Shown here one piece after another: positions 3,847 through 44,356 of a stretch of 46,321 nt of DNA. The notes under the pieces were generated by a model, which was not told where the DNA came from, did no database searches, and was given only the letters and a program-made list of their open reading frames with translations. Positions within the stretch are counted from its first letter, which is position 1. Each line of letters opens with the position of its first letter. The translations under genes and the position numbers were made by a program. The DNA lies in contig CACXMR010000025.1 in assembly GCA_902768825.1 (NCBI GenBank), positions 27,701-74,021 on the forward strand. The letters run 5' to 3'. Origin of the DNA: an uncultured Ruminococcus sp. (lineage in GTDB: Bacteria; Bacillota; Clostridia; Oscillospirales; Acutalibacteraceae).

Positions 3847-4365
3847 ATGAGCAATATGCCGATATTTGCTTTCATATTGCTGGGAATAATGCTGTTTGCC
3901 TTTGCTGCAATCTACTTTTTATTTTTCCTGATTGATCATCGTGACAAGCTTTATACCTTTGACGATGATGCGGTTATGAACAGCGACAGCTTTGAATGTG
4001 AGTTCAGGAGAGTGGGCGGCGCAAAATACGAGCACACCAGCCTGAAGCTCATTCTTGAAAGCCCTGACAAGGCAAAGCTTGAGTACAGCTCAAAGCCGGC
4101 AGCCGGAGCAAGGACCGTGACGGAGGAGATAGAGGTGCCGACTGAGCTTCCGCTAAGGCTGAGGGAAATATACAAGGAGCATTGCATCCCGGTGCTGAGC
4201 GATTGTGACAAGCGTGAGGAGATAAGCGGAGATGAGCCTGTTTCCAGTGTTACCTTCAGTGCAAAGGATCAGTCCTATACCATCGACAGTGAGCAGATCT
4301 TTCCTCAGACAAGCGCAGACCTGATAGGGGAGATCGAAGAGCTGCTGATGGCGTATGTCAAGTAG
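3847..4365 (+). CDS. Small single-span membrane protein of unknown function
   Basis: I do not recognise the family. The 172-residue protein has one N-terminal membrane segment (about 6-30, rich in Phe, Leu and Ile) followed by a soluble domain with alternating beta-type sequence. The topology is therefore a membrane anchor with one exposed domain. The start was set at 3847 because AGGAGGTG (3832-3839) is correctly spaced from it. The in-frame ATG at 3829 overlaps that site and is unlikely. It heads a cluster of three unknown genes (3847-5395) that end at one terminator. Confidence 0.75.
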   Translation: MSNMPIFAFILLGIMLFAFAAIYFLFFLIDHRDKLYTFDDDAVMNSDSFECEFRRVGGAKYEHTSLKLILESPDKAKLEYSSKPAAGARTVTEEIEVPTELPLRLREIYKEHCIPVLSDCDKREEISGDEPVSSVTFSAKDQSYTIDSEQIFPQTSADLIGEIEELLMAYVK

Positions 4366-4398
4366 CAAACTAAAAAACATAGAGAAGGAGAGATCGCT

Positions 4399-4962
4399 AT
4401 GGGTCTTTTTGATAATATTAGCAGGCAAGCCGGCAGTCAGACAGGAGGCACAGCCTCAGCCGGCGGAAACAGATCGGTGAATGTGGTGTTTTCATCCTTG
4501 CCGGAAACCGTGGAGCAGTTTAAGGCTCTTCCTCAGGCCGCACTGACCAGTCCCTTTGATACAGCGGCTCTGACAGTGCTTGCGTTTTGCTTCTATCCTC
4601 AGGACAAGGATGCCTGTCTTGCTATGGTGGATTATCTGAAGGGTCCCAAGCCCCTGAGCAGCTATGACAAGTCGTTTATTGCAGACCGTTTCAGAGGTGT
4701 GGATTACATTCCAAGGTCGTATTTCAACGGTGCGACACCGCAGAATGATTATTTGCCGTCCCAGCCCTATACCGTTACGGTATCAGAAAATCCCTATTCC
4801 TATCAGAACGAGGGCTATGCAAAGCTCTTTATTAGATCAGGAGGTGCAGACAGTCCCAGAGAGGTGCTGCTGCGCAAGGCGAAGGACGGAAAGTGGTATC
4901 TGTGGGAGCAGTTCATTCTTGTGGGCATTCGCCAGCCGGAGAGCTCTGACCCATGGGCATAA
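4399..4962 (+). CDS. Uncharacterised soluble protein, DUF6935-like
   Basis: This is a 187-residue soluble protein. After a flexible Gly/Ser/Thr-rich start (MGLFDNISRQAG, then to about residue 28) comes a compact domain: an alpha-helical part with DKDACLAMVDYLKGPKPLS and a beta-rich part ending in KWYLWEQFILVGIRQP. The overall pattern resembles small clostridial proteins that I associate with DUF6935, but I could not verify this. It follows the membrane protein by 33 bases with a GGAG ribosome site and precedes another unknown gene by 10 bases, so the three are probably cotranscribed. Confidence 0.7.
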   Translation: MGLFDNISRQAGSQTGGTASAGGNRSVNVVFSSLPETVEQFKALPQAALTSPFDTAALTVLAFCFYPQDKDACLAMVDYLKGPKPLSSYDKSFIADRFRGVDYIPRSYFNGATPQNDYLPSQPYTVTVSENPYSYQNEGYAKLFIRSGGADSPREVLLRKAKDGKWYLWEQFILVGIRQPESSDPWA

Positions 4963-4972
4963 GAGGGGTTTA

Positions 4973-5395
4973 ATGATGGATATTTTGGGAAAGTGGAAAA
5001 TCTGTGCCGAGATGATGTTTAATGACAATTTTGAAAAGATATGGAAATCCGCTGAGGAAATCCTTGCTGATAAGGATATGGAGGATTCCAGCAAGGTCAT
5101 TCTTGGATCGTCGTTCATTTTCTGTGATGACGGGTATATAAGGGTCATCATGCCGATGCCGGAGGATATCAGCCCCGAGGAGATGGAAGAAGCGATTGCT
5201 CAGGGAGAGCTGGAGTTGTATAATGGTCAGGCGGTATTTGATAAGCACCCCTACAAGATCGTGGGGGAGAAGATAATGTACGATTCAGGAGCAAAGGGCG
5301 AGGTCCTCGGGGAGAAGGTTTCACCCTGGGTAGAGATACCCTATGAGGACGGAAAGCTTCAGATGTTCCTGTATAAGCTGGAGAGAGCAGACTGA
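4973..5395 (+). CDS. Small acidic lipocalin-like protein of unknown function
   Basis: This 140-residue protein is acidic and soluble. Its start MMDILGKWK, the succession of short beta strands, and a C-terminal strand FLYKLERAD suggest a small lipocalin-like beta barrel. This is inferred from pattern only. An overlapping upstream reading in the same frame from 4664 is a shadow of the preceding gene. The start at 4973 sits 10 bases after that gene's stop, behind GAGGGG. It is the last gene before the terminator at 5443-5481. Confidence 0.65.
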   Translation: MMDILGKWKICAEMMFNDNFEKIWKSAEEILADKDMEDSSKVILGSSFIFCDDGYIRVIMPMPEDISPEEMEEAIAQGELELYNGQAVFDKHPYKIVGEKIMYDSGAKGEVLGEKVSPWVEIPYEDGKLQMFLYKLERAD

Positions 5396-5442
5396 CGATC
5401 CCGGTGCAAAGCACACCACAGATTTGATAGAATAGAATAAGA

Positions 5443-5481
5443 AAATGCCTGATTCCGTGTGGAACCAGGCATTTGTTTTTT
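5443..5481 (+). terminator. Rho-independent terminator, probably bidirectional
   Basis: AAATGCCTG and CAGGCATTT pair around an inner TTCC/GGAA stem with loop GTGT, followed by G and T6. It closes the plus-strand three-gene cluster. On the minus strand the tail is TTTTCTTATTCT, so it may also serve the convergent lipoprotein gene ending at 5554. Confidence 0.85.
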
Positions 5482-5553
5482 GGGGATCGCAATGGAAGTC
5501 ATTGCATTTCTATAGGTTGTTTTCAGTGGTATGAAAGCTATAGCCGTGACGGG

Positions 5554-7869
5554 TCAGATTCCAGAACGGTTGTTTTGCCCCCGTGAAAACGGGCGTCCGG
5601 AATTTCCGCCCTGATAGACTCCGCTCTGGTTTACATAGGTGACAGCGTTTGTGACGGTAAAGCTTGCATATTCCTCGCCGCCGGAGACCGCTGCCTTCTT
5701 TAAGTATCCGTGAATGCTTTCTCCGTCTGCCGAACCGCCGAGCATTACCTTATATGTCTCGCCCTCGGCAAGAGACGGATTGCTAATGAGGATACAGCTG
5801 AAATCTACCTCAGGAGTCATAGCGGCGATCACATTGCCCTGACTGTCTGTGACATAAACAAGGGTGCCTGCCTTCTGTGATGATGAGAAGGTGATGGCCA
5901 CGGTTTTCTGGGTGGAATCGCTGCCGGGCATTTCAAGCATATCGGATGTGCCCGCACCGATGAGAATACCGCCGGTAATGCTGCAGCTTCCGTCATGGTC
6001 GATTATGCCGTTTCCGCCGGCTACGGGACCGTTGAGGATTATGGTGCCGCCGGAGATGTTCAGGGCTGAGTTGGAGTCAAGCCCGTCACCGCCGGAGCTT
6101 ATGCAGATGGTGCCGCCGCTTATGGTGATCTCAGAGGATGAGCCTTCTGTGCTGCTGCCGGAGTCAGGGGATTGGGGATTATTACCGCCCTGATTGGGGT
6201 CAAAGTTTTCAGGCATAGACGGTCTATCCTGTCCGCCCTGAGTGGGGTCGAAGTTTTCAGGCATAGACGGTCTATCCTGTCCGCCCTGAGTGGGGTCGAA
6301 GTTTTCAGGCATAGACGGTCTTTCCTGTCCGCCCTGAGTGGGGTCGAAGTTTTCAGGCATAGACGGTCTGTCCTGTCCGCCCTGAGTCGGGTCGAAGTTT
6401 TCAGGCATATTGCGTTTACCGCCGAAGTTCATCCTGTTATCAAAGTTGCCAAAGCCGCTGTTATCATTGCCGCCTGCAGCGTTAACGCCGTCATCACTGG
6501 CTGTGACGTCGATGTCTCCGCCGGATATTCCTATCCTCATGGCTTCAAGACCTTCGTATGACTTTTTGATAGTGACAGACCCGCCGGTGATGGCAATGTC
6601 GGAATCTGCGTGTATGCCGTCATCTCCTGAGCTGAGAGTAATACTTCCGTCAGTGATGGTGACACTGCTGTTTGAATGTATTGCGTCATCATAGCAATCA
6701 GCGGTAATTGTGCCGCCGTTAATGATTATGTCAGTGCCTGCCTTGAGACCCTTGCGGCTCTCCTCTGTTGATGACTGACTGTCGGTGCTTGTCGGGGTCT
6801 GAGCCTTTGCTTCGGCATCGGTGCCTGTTGATGAGGAGGTAGTCTTGTTGTTTCCCTCGTCAGTGTTTTGCCTTACAGGTCTTCCGTTAAAGCCGCCAAA
6901 GCCGCCAAAGCCGTTACCGGATTTATTTGCGGGAGCTTTTTCAGAGCCGCCTGCCGTAGTAATGTTTATGCTGCCGCTTTTGACGGTGACGGATTTTTCC
7001 GCCTGGATACCGTCGTTTGATGCGTTTATTGTGATATCGGCATTTTCGATTATCACGTGGCCGAGATCGCTTTTATCGGTGTCGGAGTATGTGGAGCGCA
7101 GACCATCGCCGTCATTTGCATCAACGGTGATAACACCGCCGCTTACGGCAAGATCATCTCTGCCGGTGATGCCGTGATGTGCCGCACTTACATTTATAGT
7201 ACCCCCGGTTATCCTCAGAATATCCTTGCAGGTGATGCCGTTTTTTGCATTGCCCTTGACGTTGAGAGTGCCGCTGCCGGAGATCGTGAGATCATCCTTG
7301 CAGAAAAGAGAGGCGTCAGGTGCGCTGTCGTCATCCTCGTTTATATAGGAACTGCCGTCACTTAGGGTGCTTTCAGAGCCTGATGGCAGGACTATGATAG
7401 TTTTTTTGCTCTTTTCTGAATACAGTGCGGGGGCATTGCTGCTGCTGATTTCGGCATTGTCCATAACCAGCCTGACAACATCGTTTTTGCCTGCGCTGAT
7501 GATCAGGCTCCCGCCTGTGAGACTGCCGCTTATGACATAAGTGCCTGCTTCAGAGATCGTCACGCTGCCGTCATTAAACGCTGCGCCGTTGCCGCTGATC
7601 TGGGCATCGTTTCCCTTCAGGGTAATGCTAACGGCACTGTCCTTGTCAAAATCCGTATTGGTATCCTCATCCGACAATGTTACGTTTACGGTTGATGCGG
7701 TTGGGGTGACTGATCCTATGCTTGCATCGTTATTTAGTGATGAGGCGTTAAGCTCCACTTTAGTATTTTCCTTTTCGGAGCAGCCCGAAAGCATAAGCGA
7801 ACCGACTATGGCTGTGCAAAGCACCGCTGCCATTAAGCATCTGAATATTACCGACTTGTACCTTCTCAT
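5554..7869 (-). CDS. Cell-surface lipoprotein with carbohydrate-binding DUF4353 (Cthe_2159-like) beta-helix
   Basis: This 771-residue lipoprotein has a signal peptide ending in a lipobox LSGC (Cys near residue 30). Most of the chain is short beta strands of the form ITISGGTI or VTIKSGSI with SGNG and DDGIHA turns, a parallel beta-helix. This matches DUF4353; Cthe_2159 of Clostridium thermocellum, a family member, binds cellulose and acidic sugars such as polygalacturonate. It is probably a surface glycan-binding protein, not an enzyme. A low-complexity insert of five 16-residue Pro/Asn/Gln-rich repeats (6169-6408) splits the helix. The start was set at the ATG at 7869, 9 bases after AGGAG; the TTG at 7878 abuts that site. 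Confidence 0.85.
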   Translation of the reverse strand: MRRYKSVIFRCLMAAVLCTAIVGSLMLSGCSEKENTKVELNASSLNNDASIGSVTPTASTVNVTLSDEDTNTDFDKDSAVSITLKGNDAQISGNGAAFNDGSVTISEAGTYVISGSLTGGSLIISAGKNDVVRLVMDNAEISSSNAPALYSEKSKKTIIVLPSGSESTLSDGSSYINEDDDSAPDASLFCKDDLTISGSGTLNVKGNAKNGITCKDILRITGGTINVSAAHHGITGRDDLAVSGGVITVDANDGDGLRSTYSDTDKSDLGHVIIENADITINASNDGIQAEKSVTVKSGSINITTAGGSEKAPANKSGNGFGGFGGFNGRPVRQNTDEGNNKTTSSSTGTDAEAKAQTPTSTDSQSSTEESRKGLKAGTDIIINGGTITADCYDDAIHSNSSVTITDGSITLSSGDDGIHADSDIAITGGSVTIKKSYEGLEAMRIGISGGDIDVTASDDGVNAAGGNDNSGFGNFDNRMNFGGKRNMPENFDPTQGGQDRPSMPENFDPTQGGQERPSMPENFDPTQGGQDRPSMPENFDPTQGGQDRPSMPENFDPNQGGNNPQSPDSGSSTEGSSSEITISGGTICISSGGDGLDSNSALNISGGTIILNGPVAGGNGIIDHDGSCSITGGILIGAGTSDMLEMPGSDSTQKTVAITFSSSQKAGTLVYVTDSQGNVIAAMTPEVDFSCILISNPSLAEGETYKVMLGGSADGESIHGYLKKAAVSGGEEYASFTVTNAVTYVNQSGVYQGGNSGRPFSRGQNNRSGI
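6169..6408 (-). repeat. Five tandem 48-bp (16-codon) repeats inside the DUF4353 gene
   Basis: Five in-frame units of MPENFDPTQGGQDRPS type follow each other. Three are nearly identical, one carries E for D (QER), and the last is diverged (FDPNQGGNNPQS). It lies in a Gly/Asn-rich linker between beta-helix segments. Confidence 0.9.
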
Positions 7870-31035: not shown

Positions 31036-33623
31036 ATGGAAAAAGAACTTGCAAAGGCTTATGCTCCAGGGGAGTTTGAGGACAGAATATACCGGTTCTG
31101 GGAGGAAAGCGGTTTCTTCCACGCAGAGATCGACCCGGAGAAAAAACCATACACGATTATGATGCCGCCCCCCAATATTACAGGTCAGCTCCACATGGGT
31201 CATGCCCTTGACAATACCCTTCAGGATATCCTTATCCGCTTCAAGAGGATGCAGGGCTACAGTGCACTGTGGCTGCCCGGCACGGATCATGCTTCCATTG
31301 CAACGGAGGCAAGGATCGTTGAGGCTATGCGCAAGGAGGGCGTCACGAAGGAAGAGATCGGCAGAGAAAAGTTTCTTGAGCGTGCATGGGCGTGGAAAAA
31401 GGAATACGGCGGCAGGATAGTCAAGCAGCTGCGCAAGATGGGTTCGTCAGCCGACTGGGAGCGTGAACGCTTTACTATGGACGAGGGCTGCAATAAGGCA
31501 GTCAAGCAGGTTTTTGTGAATCTCTACAATAAGGGCCTTATCTACAGAGGCGAGAGGATCATCAACTGGTGTCCTCATTGCCTGACGTCAATTTCCGACG
31601 CAGAGGTAGAGTATGAGGAGCAGGCAGGACATTTCTGGCATCTTAGATATGCTCTTTCAGACGGCAGCGGATATATCAATCTTGCTACGACACGTCCTGA
31701 GACCCTTCTGGGCGATACGGCTGTAGCTGTAAACCCCGATGACGAAAGATATAAGGACCTTGTAGGCAAGACGGTCATCCTGCCCATCGTTCACCGTGAG
31801 ATACCCATTATTGCGGATGATTATGTTGAAATGGATTTCGGAACAGGCGTAGTTAAGATTACTCCCGCTCACGACCCCAACGACTTTGAGGTGGGTCTCA
31901 GACATAACCTGCCTGTTCTCAACGTAATGACTGATGACGCTAAGATAAATGATGACTACCCGAAGTATGCGGGCATGGACAGATATGAGGCAAGAAAGGC
32001 CATCGTCAAGGATCTTGTTATTCCCACAACGTAGGCACCTGCTATCGCTGCTCTACTACGGTTGAGCCGAGAGTTTCAAAGCAGTGGTTCGTAAAGATGA
32101 AGCCGCTTGCAGGTCCTGCCATAGATGCTGTCAAGAACGGCGACACACAGTTTGTTCCATCCCACTTTGAAAAGACCTATTTCCACTGGCTTGAGAATAT
32201 CCGTGACTGGTGTATTTCCCGCCAGCTCTGGTGGGGACATCAGATACCCGCATTCTACTGCGACGACTGCGGTGAGACTGTCGTAACAAAGGATAACGAG
32301 GCTTTCTGCCCCAAGTGCGGCAAAAAGATGCGTCAGGATCCTGACACGCTTGACACCTGGTTCTCATCAGCACTCTGGCCCTTCAGCACATTGGGATGGC
32401 CCGAAAAGACCCCTGAGATGGATTATTTCTATCCCACAAACGTGCTGGTGACGGGCTATGATATCATACCCTTCTGGGTAATGAGGATGATGTTCAGCGG
32501 TATGGAGCACACCGGCAAGGCTCCCTTTGATACCGTTCTCATCCACGGTCTTGTGCGTGATGCTCTTGGCAGAAAGATGAGCAAGTCTCTCGGCAACGGC
32601 ATCGATCCGCTGGAGATAATCGATAAGTACGGCGCTGACGCACTGAGGCTCACGCTTGTTACAGGCAATGCGCCCGGCAACGACATGAGATATTCCGAGG
32701 AAAAGATCACTGCCAGCAGGAATTTTGCAAACAAGCTCTGGAATGCTGCACGCTTTATCAGAATGAATATCGACGGCCACGATGTCAGAAACGAGCTTCC
32801 CGCTGAGCTGACCACTGAGGACAAGTGGATAATCTCAACCCTTAACACCGTTACAAAAGAGGTAACGGAGAATCTTGAAAAATACGAGCTTGGCATAGCA
32901 GTGCAGAAGCTCTATGACTTCATCTGGGATTGCCTGTGTGACTGGTATATCGAGCTTACAAAGGCAAGGCTTCAGGGTGAGGGCGAGAGTGCTCAGAATG
33001 CAAGGATGGTTCTTGTCTGGGTGCTTGACAAGGCACTCAAGCTGCTGCACCCCTTCATGCCATTTATTACAGAGGAGATCTGGCAGGCACTCCCTCACGA
33101 GGGCGAGACTATCATGCTCCAGAGCTTCCCCACCTACAGCGAGGCTAATGATTATCCTGAGGCCGCAAAGGAAATGAACATGGTGATGGAAGCTATCAAG
33201 GCAATAAGAATACGCAGAGCAGAGATGAACGTGCCGCCGTCACGCAAGGCAAAGGTGTTTATCGCAGCAAAGGAACAGCAGACCTTTACCAATGGCAGTA
33301 TGTTCTTTAAGCGTCTTGCCAGCGCAAGCGAGATAACCGTAGCAGACAGCTTTGATATAGAGGGCGCTGTTACTATCGTTACGGCTGATGCAAAGATATA
33401 CATTCCCATGGATGAGCTTGTGGACAAAGAGGCGGAGCTGAAGCGTCTCAACAAGGATCTTGAGAGTGCTCAGTCAGACCTGGCCTTCCATGAGAAGAAG
33501 CTGAACAACGCAGGCTTCATGGCAAAGGCTCCCGAAAAGGTAGTAGAGGGAGTAAGGGCTTCTGCTGCGAAGGCTGCCGAAAAAATAAAGATGATAGAGG
33601 CCGCTATTGCCGCCTTGAAGTGA
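31036..33623 (+). pseudogene. valS: Valyl-tRNA synthetase, interrupted by an internal deletion with frameshift
   Basis: Two pieces together make a class Ia valyl-tRNA synthetase, normally about 880 residues. Piece 1 (31036-32034) has the HIGH-type motif GQLHMGHAL and the start of the editing domain, and ends KDLVIPTT at a stop. Piece 2 resumes in another frame from about 32025 ([20 protein letters not shown]; first ATG 32097) to 33623 and has KMSKS in [11 protein letters not shown], the anticodon domain and the C-terminal coiled coil. Only 8 bases (32017-32024) separate KDL from HNVG where the family has about 13 residues, so about 31 bases seem lost. ValRS is essential, so a second gene, a sequence error or a genuine defect must explain this. 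The upstream promoter and the RBS are intact. Confidence 0.85.
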
Positions 33624-42071: not shown

Positions 42072-43688
42072 TTATGCAAAGCTTTCGTCCAGATATATTT
42101 CTGACAGGTCAAAATCCTTTCCGAAGTAAGCCTTGAGCTGCTTTTTCTGAGGGTTGATGAGCATTGAAAGGGATAGCCCTGCTTTTTCCATAAGCTCCAG
42201 GTGAAGGTCTGCATCGGCTTGACTGAGTGACATTTTCAGTTCTCCGGGATGGCTGTGCACAAAACCCAGCATAAGTATGTCAGGATTTGTCTGTCGTATC
42301 TCTCTGATGCCTTCCACAGCGGAGTCAAGGGTGCTCTGGGTAAAAACACCTGTCTTTTCGTCTGCAAACTCAAGAGGTGTTTCTCTTACATGGCGCACCA
42401 CAAAAAGACTTCCGGCTCTGCTGCCGTAAAGAGCGGCCATCTGCTCAACACGGTTAGTGTCAGTGGTGTGACCCCAGTGGAAAAGCAGCCGCAGTTCGTG
42501 CCCGGCATTGCCTGTGAAGATTACCCTGCTCTCGGATGGGATGTCATAGCTGATGCGAAGGATAGATTTGTTGGGGGTGGTTTTGCTAAGCTCTGAGAGA
42601 GCACTGCTGTATAGCCCTGGCATTTTGTCATAGGTGTCTGACTGCCTGTCGCTGTAGTAATCCCTGATGCAAAAGAGGGGCTCTCCCTTGTCAAAATCAT
42701 AGGTGTGCAGGCTGTCGCCAAGGCATCGATCCTTGTAGTAGCAGCCTTTGCATTTTTGGGCAAGGGTCCTCGTTCTGTTTCGGAAAAAACCGAAGCCCTT
42801 TTGCCATACCTCCGGCAGGGAATGGGTGCGGACATTGCCCTGTATCAGCTCCGGCCTGCGTTCCACATTCGGGCAGACAAAAATATCCCCGTTATAGAGT
42901 ATGCTTGCCACACGCTTTCCTGCTCCGCACTCAAAGCATGAGGTGCGTATGAGGTGCTCCTTGTCGCCGAAGTAGTGGGAGCAGCTTGCCATGACCGGAA
43001 GAACGGGGTCCTGAGAATACTTTTCAAGAAATTCAAGGTAGCGCTCCATGCAGCTCCGGTCAGGAAGTATTTCCTCGTTGTCCCTTGCCCGACCGATGGG
43101 GTCAGCCGTGACTATTCGCCATGAGTCAAGGCCGATGTCAAGAAGGACCTTTCTCAGTTCCTCAAGCTCGTTAATATTCCTTTTGTTTACAACTGTCGTG
43201 ACCTGCACATTATCGCAGAATCCCTCACTGCAGATCTGACGCAGAGACTTCATTATCCTGTCATAGCTGCCATAAAGCTTCCTGAGTCCTTCGTGGGTGT
43301 CCCTGCACCCGTCAATGCTCACTGTGATGGTTTTCATTCCCGCACTCTTCATGCGGGCGATAATCTCAGGGGTTATGAGGGAGCCGTTTGTCACCATGCC
43401 CCAGGGAAATCCAAGACCTGAAGCATATTCCGCCACGTCAAGAACATCGCTCCTGACGAGAGGTTCTCCGCCTGTTATGTTAAGCATGGTTTCCTTAGGG
43501 TCAAGAGTTGATGCCGTTTCTGATAGGGCAGTGCATATCTCCTCGGTTGTAAGCTCCTCGGGAAAGCTGTTCCTGTCGCCGCAGCTGCTGCCGCAGAATT
43601 CGCACCGTGCATTGCAGCGCAGGGTTGTCTCCCAAAAAAGAGTCCTCAGCGGGAAAGCATTATCCGACTTGTATGTATTATCGTTCAT
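42072..43688 (-). CDS. Radical SAM/SPASM enzyme fused to a JAMM metalloprotease domain
   Basis: This 538-residue protein is a fusion. Residues about 10-230 are a radical SAM domain with the 4Fe-4S motif CNARCEFC (Cys25, 29, 32) and GGEPL. A SPASM region follows (about 250-345: CFECGAGKRVASILYNGDIF, CKGCYYKDRC) with cysteines for extra clusters, as in peptide-modifying enzymes. The C-terminus (about 395-538) is a JAMM/MPN domain with Glu415 (VEQMAALYGS), His478-Ser-His-Pro (HSHP), then seven residues, Ser489 and Asp492, a complete zinc set. The substrate is unknown; a peptide or a ubiquitin-like adduct is possible. The ATG at 43688 has AAGG 7 bases upstream; ATG 43706 overlaps the upstream gene by 8 bases. 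It is cotranscribed with the zinc-ribbon gene. Confidence 0.85.
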   Translation of the reverse strand: MNDNTYKSDNAFPLRTLFWETTLRCNARCEFCGSSCGDRNSFPEELTTEEICTALSETASTLDPKETMLNITGGEPLVRSDVLDVAEYASGLGFPWGMVTNGSLITPEIIARMKSAGMKTITVSIDGCRDTHEGLRKLYGSYDRIMKSLRQICSEGFCDNVQVTTVVNKRNINELEELRKVLLDIGLDSWRIVTADPIGRARDNEEILPDRSCMERYLEFLEKYSQDPVLPVMASCSHYFGDKEHLIRTSCFECGAGKRVASILYNGDIFVCPNVERRPELIQGNVRTHSLPEVWQKGFGFFRNRTRTLAQKCKGCYYKDRCLGDSLHTYDFDKGEPLFCIRDYYSDRQSDTYDKMPGLYSSALSELSKTTPNKSILRISYDIPSESRVIFTGNAGHELRLLFHWGHTTDTNRVEQMAALYGSRAGSLFVVRHVRETPLEFADEKTGVFTQSTLDSAVEGIREIRQTNPDILMLGFVHSHPGELKMSLSQADADLHLELMEKAGLSLSMLINPQKKQLKAYFGKDFDLSEIYLDESFA

Positions 43689-43698
43689 CCTGCGGCCT

Positions 43699-44298
43699 TC
43701 ATTCATTGAGAGGGATCAGCTCGCTGTGCTGACCGGCATGAGCATATTTCTTTTCCAGCTCTGATGACACCGGACAGCCGTACAGACAGCCAAAGGAGCC
43801 TGCACGGGACATCAATTCGTCACGGTGGGCATAGACCAGGGTGAGCTGATTGTTCTTTGCTATGGTGAGGGCTTCGGCAAGAATAACCTCGTGACCGTCA
43901 GGCCGCTGCAGTTCATCATTGCGGTGATTAACCACCAGATCGGAATTGTAGCTGTAAAAATCCATGATGTGATGGAAGCTTTTGGTGTAAAGCAGCTTGC
44001 TTCTCAACATGGCGTTTAGGACGTCCTTGGCGGTATAGAAGAGAGGACAGACCAGGGACTGCTCTATTTGTCTGAGAGGAATAATACCGTCATCAGAAAC
44101 ATATCTGAAGGTTATGGAAGCGGTCTTGGTGAGGTCATCTGCCGATGAGATCACACCTTTTTTGGTCAGATAGTCAGCAAGAGCAGTCATTCCCTCGTCC
44201 ATTATGAGAAGCGGCGATCCGCAAAAAACGCAGTATCTGACCCTGTCGGGGCTGATGCCTTCGTCCGGGATATCCTTTTTGCAAAGCGGACATTTCAT
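43699..44298 (-). CDS. Zinc-ribbon protein of unknown function, partner of the radical SAM-JAMM enzyme
   Basis: This 199-residue protein begins with a zinc ribbon (MKCPLCKKDIPDE, then YCVFCGSPLL near 22-31), and continues with an alpha/beta part that I do not recognise (RYVSDDGIIPLRQIEQSLVC, NHRNDELQRPDGHEVILAEAL and FGCLYGCPVSSELEKK). It has no signal or membrane segment. I set the start at 44298, 9 bases after AAGGAG; earlier ATGs at 44307 and 44322 sit on or before that site. Its 3' end lies within the start region of the radical SAM-JAMM gene. Substrate carrier or adaptor is a guess from the operon only. Confidence 0.7.
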   Translation of the reverse strand: MKCPLCKKDIPDEGISPDRVRYCVFCGSPLLIMDEGMTALADYLTKKGVISSADDLTKTASITFRYVSDDGIIPLRQIEQSLVCPLFYTAKDVLNAMLRSKLLYTKSFHHIMDFYSYNSDLVVNHRNDELQRPDGHEVILAEALTIAKNNQLTLVYAHRDELMSRAGSFGCLYGCPVSSELEKKYAHAGQHSELIPLNE

Positions 44299-44356
44299 AA
44301 CAGTCATCTCCTTTTTTATCATATCTTATTATATCATACCTAATGTGTTTGCCTTA

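Follow-up and report, generated by a model that had tools for sequence, protein, structure and literature searches.

A radical SAM/SPASM-JAMM fusion enzyme and its likely substrate, a neighbouring protein with a Tyr-Gly core, in an uncultured Ruminococcus

The window analysed here, a 46,321-nt stretch from an uncultured Ruminococcus sp. (assembly GCA_902768825.1, contig CACXMR010000025.1, positions 27,701-74,021 of the forward strand), contains two overlapping reverse-strand genes. On balance, we regard this pair as a protein-maturation module, in which the first gene product would be the substrate and the second, a radical S-adenosylmethionine (SAM)/SPASM enzyme fused to a JAMM metalloprotease domain, its two-step maturase. 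In the first step, the radical SAM/SPASM half would modify a Tyr-Gly site in the floppy C-terminal tail of the partner (C-L-Y-G-C-P), with excision of tyramine as a plausible chemistry. In the second, the JAMM half would hydrolyse the bond after Gly (YG/C) or a neighbouring altered amide and free a tail of 16-27 residues, as JAMM proteases do on ubiquitin-type precursors; the tail would act as the recognition element. The predicted product is a zinc-ribbon/ubiquitin-like protein whose C-terminus has been shortened, chemically changed and probably made reactive; related species would produce a small peptide or lipoprotein ending in the same way. We infer the order of the steps, the chemistry and the cut. 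The sequence-only reading had already suggested such a sequence of events, a peptide or carrier being altered at its C-terminus before trimming or release, and the present results favour it.

The fusion enzyme and its partner

The partner gene (43699-44298, 199 aa) comes first, with a Shine-Dalgarno sequence, AAGGAG (44308-44313), 9 bases ahead of its ATG. It shares 8 bases with the fusion gene (42072-43706, 544 aa), which has its ATG at 43706 and a further in-frame ATG at 43688. All positions given for the pair are on the reverse strand.

The sequence-only reading had proposed that a radical SAM/SPASM enzyme and a JAMM domain are joined in one polypeptide, and profile searches and residue conservation confirmed this. 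The radical SAM domain (residues 26-186; 43149-43631) matched PF04055 at E 2.6e-20 with 73.7 bits (cut-off 29.5), and the SPASM domain (residues 260-323; 42738-42929) matched PF13186 at E 3e-8 with 34.3 bits (cut-off 21.5). The CX3CX2C motif of the SAM-binding 4Fe-4S cluster (C31, C35 and C38; 43593-43616) was invariant in 26/26 fusions. The SPASM cysteines of the earlier reading were equally constant: seven Cys and one Asp (C242, C260, C278, C319, C322, C328, D331 and C346), which reach beyond the SPASM domain on both sides, were invariant in 26/26 and are putative ligands of auxiliary clusters. The best NCBIfam family was TIGR04133 (radical SAM, lipoprotein neighbour), at 268.4 bits and below its 425-bit cut-off. 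The closest solved folds for this half were SuiB, SkfB and PqqE.

The JAMM/MPN+ domain (residues 386-540; 42087-42551) contains the catalytic Glu421 (42444-42446), HSHP at residues 484-487 with the presumed zinc ligands H484 and H486 (42246-42257), and Ser495..Asp498 (42213-42224), each invariant in 26/26 homologues. The set that had been called complete from the letters (Glu, His-x-His-Pro, Ser-x2-Asp) was indeed so in 26/26 sequences of one alignment and 30/30 of another, which take in 26/35 and 30/35 of the full fusions, respectively. Because the HSHP...S..D pattern itself served to recognise fusion loci, independent evidence comes here only from the conservation of Glu421 and from how long the JAMM-less relatives are. 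Pfam Prok-JAB scored 17.3 bits on this domain, under the curated 25, and the C-terminal domain had the MPN fold that the JAMM assignment predicts.

The N-terminal zinc ribbon of the partner, also recognised earlier, has C3, C6, C23 and C26 (44221-44292) invariant in 8/8 sequences. It is followed by a middle domain with a probable ubiquitin-like fold (residues 52-164; 43807-44145) and by the core motif CLYGCP (residues 171-176; 43771-43788), of which YGCP recurs in the partners and small precursors beside other fusions. The 25 residues past Gly174 (43702-43776) form the C-terminal tail that the JAMM half is predicted to remove. From residue 161 onward the partner is flexible in the structure model, with a mean predicted local distance difference test (pLDDT) score of 43-69 per block. 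Among the matches listed for this model, 42/50 are titled as ubiquitin, as a variant of it or as ubiquitin-like (UBL domain, ISG15, UFM1, Hub-1, TINCR). The remaining 8/50 are USP7 (3), PI3-kinase (2), BCOR/PCGF1 (1), USP8-inhibitor (1) and nucleosome (1) entries, in which we take the aligned domains to be ubiquitin-like; the three USP7 matches cover residues that a fourth row titles ubiquitin-like. By sequence, the partner had no match to ubiquitin in PDB or Pfam, the single Pfam row being unrelated, and hhalign against ubiquitin gave a probability of 0.2%. The model does no more than suggest a ubiquitin-like middle domain. The sequence-only reading had seen no precursor or ubiquitin-like gene in the window; this has to be revised, since the operon mate carries a YGCP core in its C-terminal tail and is probably both, the ubiquitin-like part being suggested by the model.

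Precursors with YGCP tails beside fusion genes

We scanned 84,980 species (one genome each) with a full-length alignment query and analysed the best 80 of 123 relatives, at 79 loci (L numbers): 34 intact fusions, one fusion cut at a contig end (L087) and 44 JAMM-less relatives. All counts over the 79 loci rest on these best-scoring relatives. A single-sequence JAMM query against genome contigs found nothing.

The association of enzyme and partner proposed from the window held at other loci. Same-strand open reading frames (ORFs) with YGCP were present within 1.5 kb of 32/34 other fusion genes, compared with 0/44 JAMM-less relatives (Fisher p 7.2e-20); L087 was left out of these neighbour counts. 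Controls gave 0 matches on the same strand beyond 1.5 kb and 0/78 loci on the opposite strand nearby, and one distant opposite-strand YGCP ORF lay in L117. This locus had no YGCP-tail ORF nearby, and none was found by pattern in its genome. The ORFs number 1-6 per locus and lie upstream or downstream of the fusion. At L074, six consecutive small ORFs with YGCP(N/D)S-type tails immediately follow the fusion gene (5371-6780, +), and L078 has four YGCP-tail copies. In L087, where the fusion (4052-4996) is cut, a chimeric contig is suggested because two different ORFs share the same final ten residues.

The conservation of YGCP itself is uninformative in the 48 copies analysed (33 loci including the window), because the copies were selected by it. 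Beyond the motif, Ser occurred at +5 in 44/48, Lys at +10 in 41/48 and Leu at +11 in 40/48, and the distance from Gly to the C-terminus was 16-27 residues in 48/48 and exactly 18 in 30/48. A strict AGGAG/GGAGG preceded the start of 40/47 precursor ORFs versus 16/850 opposite-strand ORFs; with a looser Shine-Dalgarno rule these figures were 43/47 and 121/850. Three fusion genomes contained the tail pattern 6, 3 and 2 times, in each case on a single contig, and these genome-wide counts equal the copies adjoining the fusion. In the window's genome, the pattern YGCPxxSE occurred once, within the partner.

The tail is attached to different proteins. It follows a zinc ribbon and middle domain in the window and L064-L068, a lone zinc ribbon in L071 (84 aa) and lipobox-bearing, lipoprotein-like ORFs in L070, L085 and L095-L097; most precursors are short peptides with hydrophobic or amphipathic-looking N-termini (by eye) and no partner-type middle domain. 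L093 has a long zinc-ribbon type partner with YGAP, its Cys replaced by Ala. That the genes are chance neighbours or share mere general co-expression is scarcely credible. Neighbourhoods of the window's close relatives are partly syntenic, with a Mg-chelatase-like gene near the fusion in the window and 4 other loci, as such an account would have it; against it stand the differing architectures of the YGCP ORFs, upstream or downstream, at 32/34 fusion loci. The controls for strand, distance and JAMM-less relatives, both for YGCP and for the edge YG ORFs described below, led us to reject chance neighbours. We are confident that the partner is a substrate of the fusion.

In a tree restricted to the radical SAM/SPASM portion (77 rows; a quick method, root not inferred, L087, L111 and L126 left out), the 35 fusions form one clade with a Shimodaira-Hasegawa-like approximate likelihood ratio test (SH-aLRT) support of 99, a pattern compatible with a single gain of JAMM. 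The fusions are in Bacillota records, many from rumen or other animal-gut assemblies. The five nearest fusion relatives of the window's enzyme are from uncultured Ruminococcus (4) and uncultured Clostridiales (1). Counting the window's own genome, the full fusion was found in 5/60 close genomes, all within the genus, and in 3/200 genomes of a family sample.

We consider it probable that the JAMM half removes the tail. An improbable alternative is that it is no tail protease and instead serves as a recognition module that holds the tail, or acts hydrolytically on a conjugate formed later by the modified protein. Isopeptide bonds are frequent targets of JAMM proteins, and the JAMM clade and the conserved tail go together, which is also compatible with tail binding. 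However, the metal and catalytic residues are all retained in 26/26 fusions, and inactive MPN- scaffolds lack the full set.

The Tyr-Gly core beyond the JAMM clade

Among the JAMM-less relatives, a small same-strand edge ORF carried YG at 32/44 loci and 12 were without one; the controls gave 7/44 on the opposite strand and 3/44 at 1.5 kb. The contexts were YGPP, YGIP, YGVx, YGTP and similar. Because the relatives carry YG in other contexts, Tyr-Gly appears to be the core of the family, and the radical SAM half very probably acts there.

In the window's genus, lipoproteins with YGPP stood at 8/10 loci of JAMM-less relatives, and none of this type was seen at L037 and L041. One or more VYGPP/LYGPP motifs were observed in lipoproteins beside JAMM-less enzymes of the window's genus and family at L035, L036, L038-L040, L042-L044, L057, L059, L061 and L062; lipoproteins of this kind beside TIGR04133-like enzymes look like substrates. 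Small zinc-ribbon proteins follow JAMM-less relatives at L060 (6475-6840, +; CIYGPRP) and L063 (2712-3353, -; CIYGPPP and CIYAPP), and zinc ribbons carry such cores outside JAMM fusions too. TIGR04133-like enzymes were also observed in candidate-phyla bacteria and one Micrarchaeota record (L113, L116, L118, L128-L130, L132, L135); LYGPP, LYGVx, EYGVx or MYGSP lay in small membrane-type ORFs beside most of them, and none was seen for L130.

A Bacteroidales pair (L140) scored above both cut-offs, with 567.9 bits for TIGR04133 and 104.9 bits for TIGR04134, and its core is EYGQP. A TIGR04134 search was positive in 24/198 genomes. For 24 of 33 loci of this family a lipoprotein ORF was chosen by script, and 22/24 contained YG, mainly soon after the lipobox; one gene is counted twice (L194, L200), and two loci (L164, L167) belong to the L137 genome, which is not Bacteroidales. 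A separate script pick, with some ORFs in the wrong frame, returned ORFs for 21 loci, 19 with YG. TIGR04134 itself had no match in the window's partner at E up to 1. It had none in the window's genome at E 0.001, in a search in which control genomes also gave none.

In Bacteroidales, YGCP closely follows the lipobox of TIGR04134-type lipoproteins at L173, L186, L189 and L194/L200; two such lipoproteins (L201, L202) had no adjacent radical SAM gene by pattern within 10-11 kb. Strict exclusivity of YGC to JAMM, suggested by the 32/34 versus 0/44, is weakened by these proteins and is claimed for the sample alone: because some Bacteroidales lipoproteins read YGCP, a Cys following YG occurs outside the JAMM clade as well. 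In the four counted Bacteroidales cases, 111-119 residues follow the core, and a short conserved C-terminal tail distinguishes the JAMM clade within this material.

Whether the reaction at Tyr-Gly is tyramine excision or another chemistry is, in our judgement, evenly poised. One somewhat unlikely account is a different modification at the same site, such as a sactionine-type thioether from the adjoining Cys or a Tyr cross-link, with JAMM still trimming the tail. The top solved folds, SuiB, SkfB and PqqE, form cross-links, and Cys follows YG in 48/48 copies, which were selected by YGCP and come from 32/34 loci and the window. On the other hand, Cys is Ala in L093 and Pro, Ile, Val, Thr or Ser in many JAMM-less relatives. 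Since Cys is replaced while Tyr and Gly persist, a reaction at Tyr-Gly fits better than one at Cys.

Three points weigh against the two steps proposed for the pair. Against TIGR04103 the fusion scored 111.9 bits (cut-off 725), and other SPASM families outscored it. In the accessible part of PMC10533398, the listed LYG tags were not accepted at the tested FtsZ sites. Judged from the portion of PMC6043591 at hand, the bulky Tyr before Gly poorly suits known JAMM sites, as would be expected if the JAMM half were not a tail protease.

Other neighbours and comparison with known systems

Besides the precursors, no neighbour of at least 80 residues occurred in more than 5/35 fusion loci. No recurring neighbour resembled ubiquitin-activating (E1) or ubiquitin-conjugating (E2) enzymes, in an analysis that made no search aimed at E1 or E2, and no PlpY-type partner was seen among the recurring neighbours of at least 80 residues at the 35 loci, where no PlpY-specific search was made. 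An ORF of 194-195 residues, sigma-factor-like by eye, lies downstream of the fusion in L064, L066, L067 and L068. PADLOC matches were viperin models alone, via the radical SAM domain, and a defence system was rejected. Elsewhere in the window, a valyl-tRNA synthetase is split into two ORFs in different frames (31036-32034 and 32097-33623, +), the second with Pfam tRNA-synt_1 and Val_tRNA-synt_C; the split is either an assembly error or a genuine interruption.

These neighbourhoods bear on a very unlikely reading, a stripped-down ubiquitin-like conjugation system in which JAMM cleavage would uncover a C-terminal Gly that can be attached to targets, with the radical SAM half activating or altering this Gly. 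The ubiquitin-like partner model with its C-terminal tail, beside a JAMM protease, would suit it. The core, however, has one Gly and not two, the ubiquitin-like domain is missing from the short peptides that make up most of the clade's precursors, and the counts of neighbours of at least 80 residues, made with no search aimed at E1 or E2, yielded no recurring gene for it. An E1-free maturation is conceivable, though unlikely: the radical SAM half, as a splicease, would give a bacterial ubiquitin-like protein a reactive alpha-keto-beta-amino group close to its C-terminus, the JAMM half of the same enzyme would remove the tail, and the electrophilic end would serve as a carrier, a sensor or a tag that conjugates itself; in related bacteria, small peptides and lipoproteins would be treated likewise.

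We found no description of a radical SAM-JAMM fusion in the literature searched, in which the main splicease survey (Scott et al. 2022) was not covered. Among the papers listed, none joined radical SAM/SPASM with JAMM-type terms; one with radical SAM and JAB concerned separate genes. TIGR04133 and TIGR04134 were not mentioned in the literature searched, and prior notice of such substrates is possible. This pair brings together two fields not yet joined in that literature: how radical SAM enzymes rewrite ribosomal peptides and how JAMM proteases process ubiquitin-like tails. TIGR04133, a hypothetical equivalog in NCBIfam, gains a testable substrate motif, Tyr-Gly, and a pointer to a splicing-type reaction, and the compact two-gene systems, with a predicted cleavage site, lend themselves to expression in E. 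coli. If the splicease reading is true, proteins with reactive backbone ketones would be widespread among rumen/gut Clostridia. The module as proposed would be a new way to finish a protein's end.

Mec+/CysO provides a JAMM protease beside a ubiquitin-like protein with a C-terminal extension. According to the part of PMC6043591 consulted, archaeal CsRpn11 cleaves the CsUb precursor between Gly78 and Cys79 and releases nine residues. The window's pair is similar in having a JAMM protease next to a protein that is probably ubiquitin-like and extended at its C-terminus, and the CsUb cut site is likewise Gly/Cys. It differs in that JAMM is fused to a radical SAM enzyme, Tyr-Gly replaces Gly-Gly, no E1/E2 was seen, and the ubiquitin-like domain is missing from most precursors of the fusion clade.

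PlpXY acts on MYG and LYG, in the available text of PMC10533398, which also mentions 939 predicted splicease systems and splicease tags including PIRPGYGLPI and PIRPLYGLPI. These tags read XYGxP, like CLYGCP in the window's partner and VYGPP in the lipoproteins of JAMM-less relatives. The fusion resembles PlpXY as a SPASM radical SAM enzyme with XYG, LYG included, in its putative substrate: LYG lies in the partner and YG in the presumed precursors of other fusions. Unlike PlpXY, it falls below the TIGR04103 cut-off, has no PlpY-type partner among the recurring neighbours counted above and carries an added JAMM domain. At E 1e-90, TIGR04103 had no match in 299 Bacillota genomes, and control genomes likewise gave none; one mycofactocin-type locus and several of heme-synthase type were left out of the analysis. 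The likeness to PlpXY lies in the substrate and does not extend to the enzyme family.

With TIGR04133/TIGR04134 pairs, the system shares its best-scoring enzyme family, a neighbour with a YG core and, in some JAMM-clade precursors, a lipoprotein-like form. The differences are the score under the 425-bit cut-off, the extra JAMM domain, the zinc-ribbon partner in the window and the position of the core, which in the JAMM clade lies towards the C-terminus, followed by a short conserved tail, and in TIGR04134 lies soon after the lipobox. Maturases of ribosomally synthesised and post-translationally modified peptides (RiPPs) similarly stand beside small encoded precursors with a conserved core, an arrangement found at 32/34 fusion loci and in the window. 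In the fusion system, by contrast, the predicted cut takes off a C-terminal segment, and a term search of a review of RiPP leader proteases (PMC10885120) gave no mention of JAMM. We place the system among radical SAM maturases of peptides and proteins; its connection to JAMM is unusual, and one to ubiquitin-like biology is probable.
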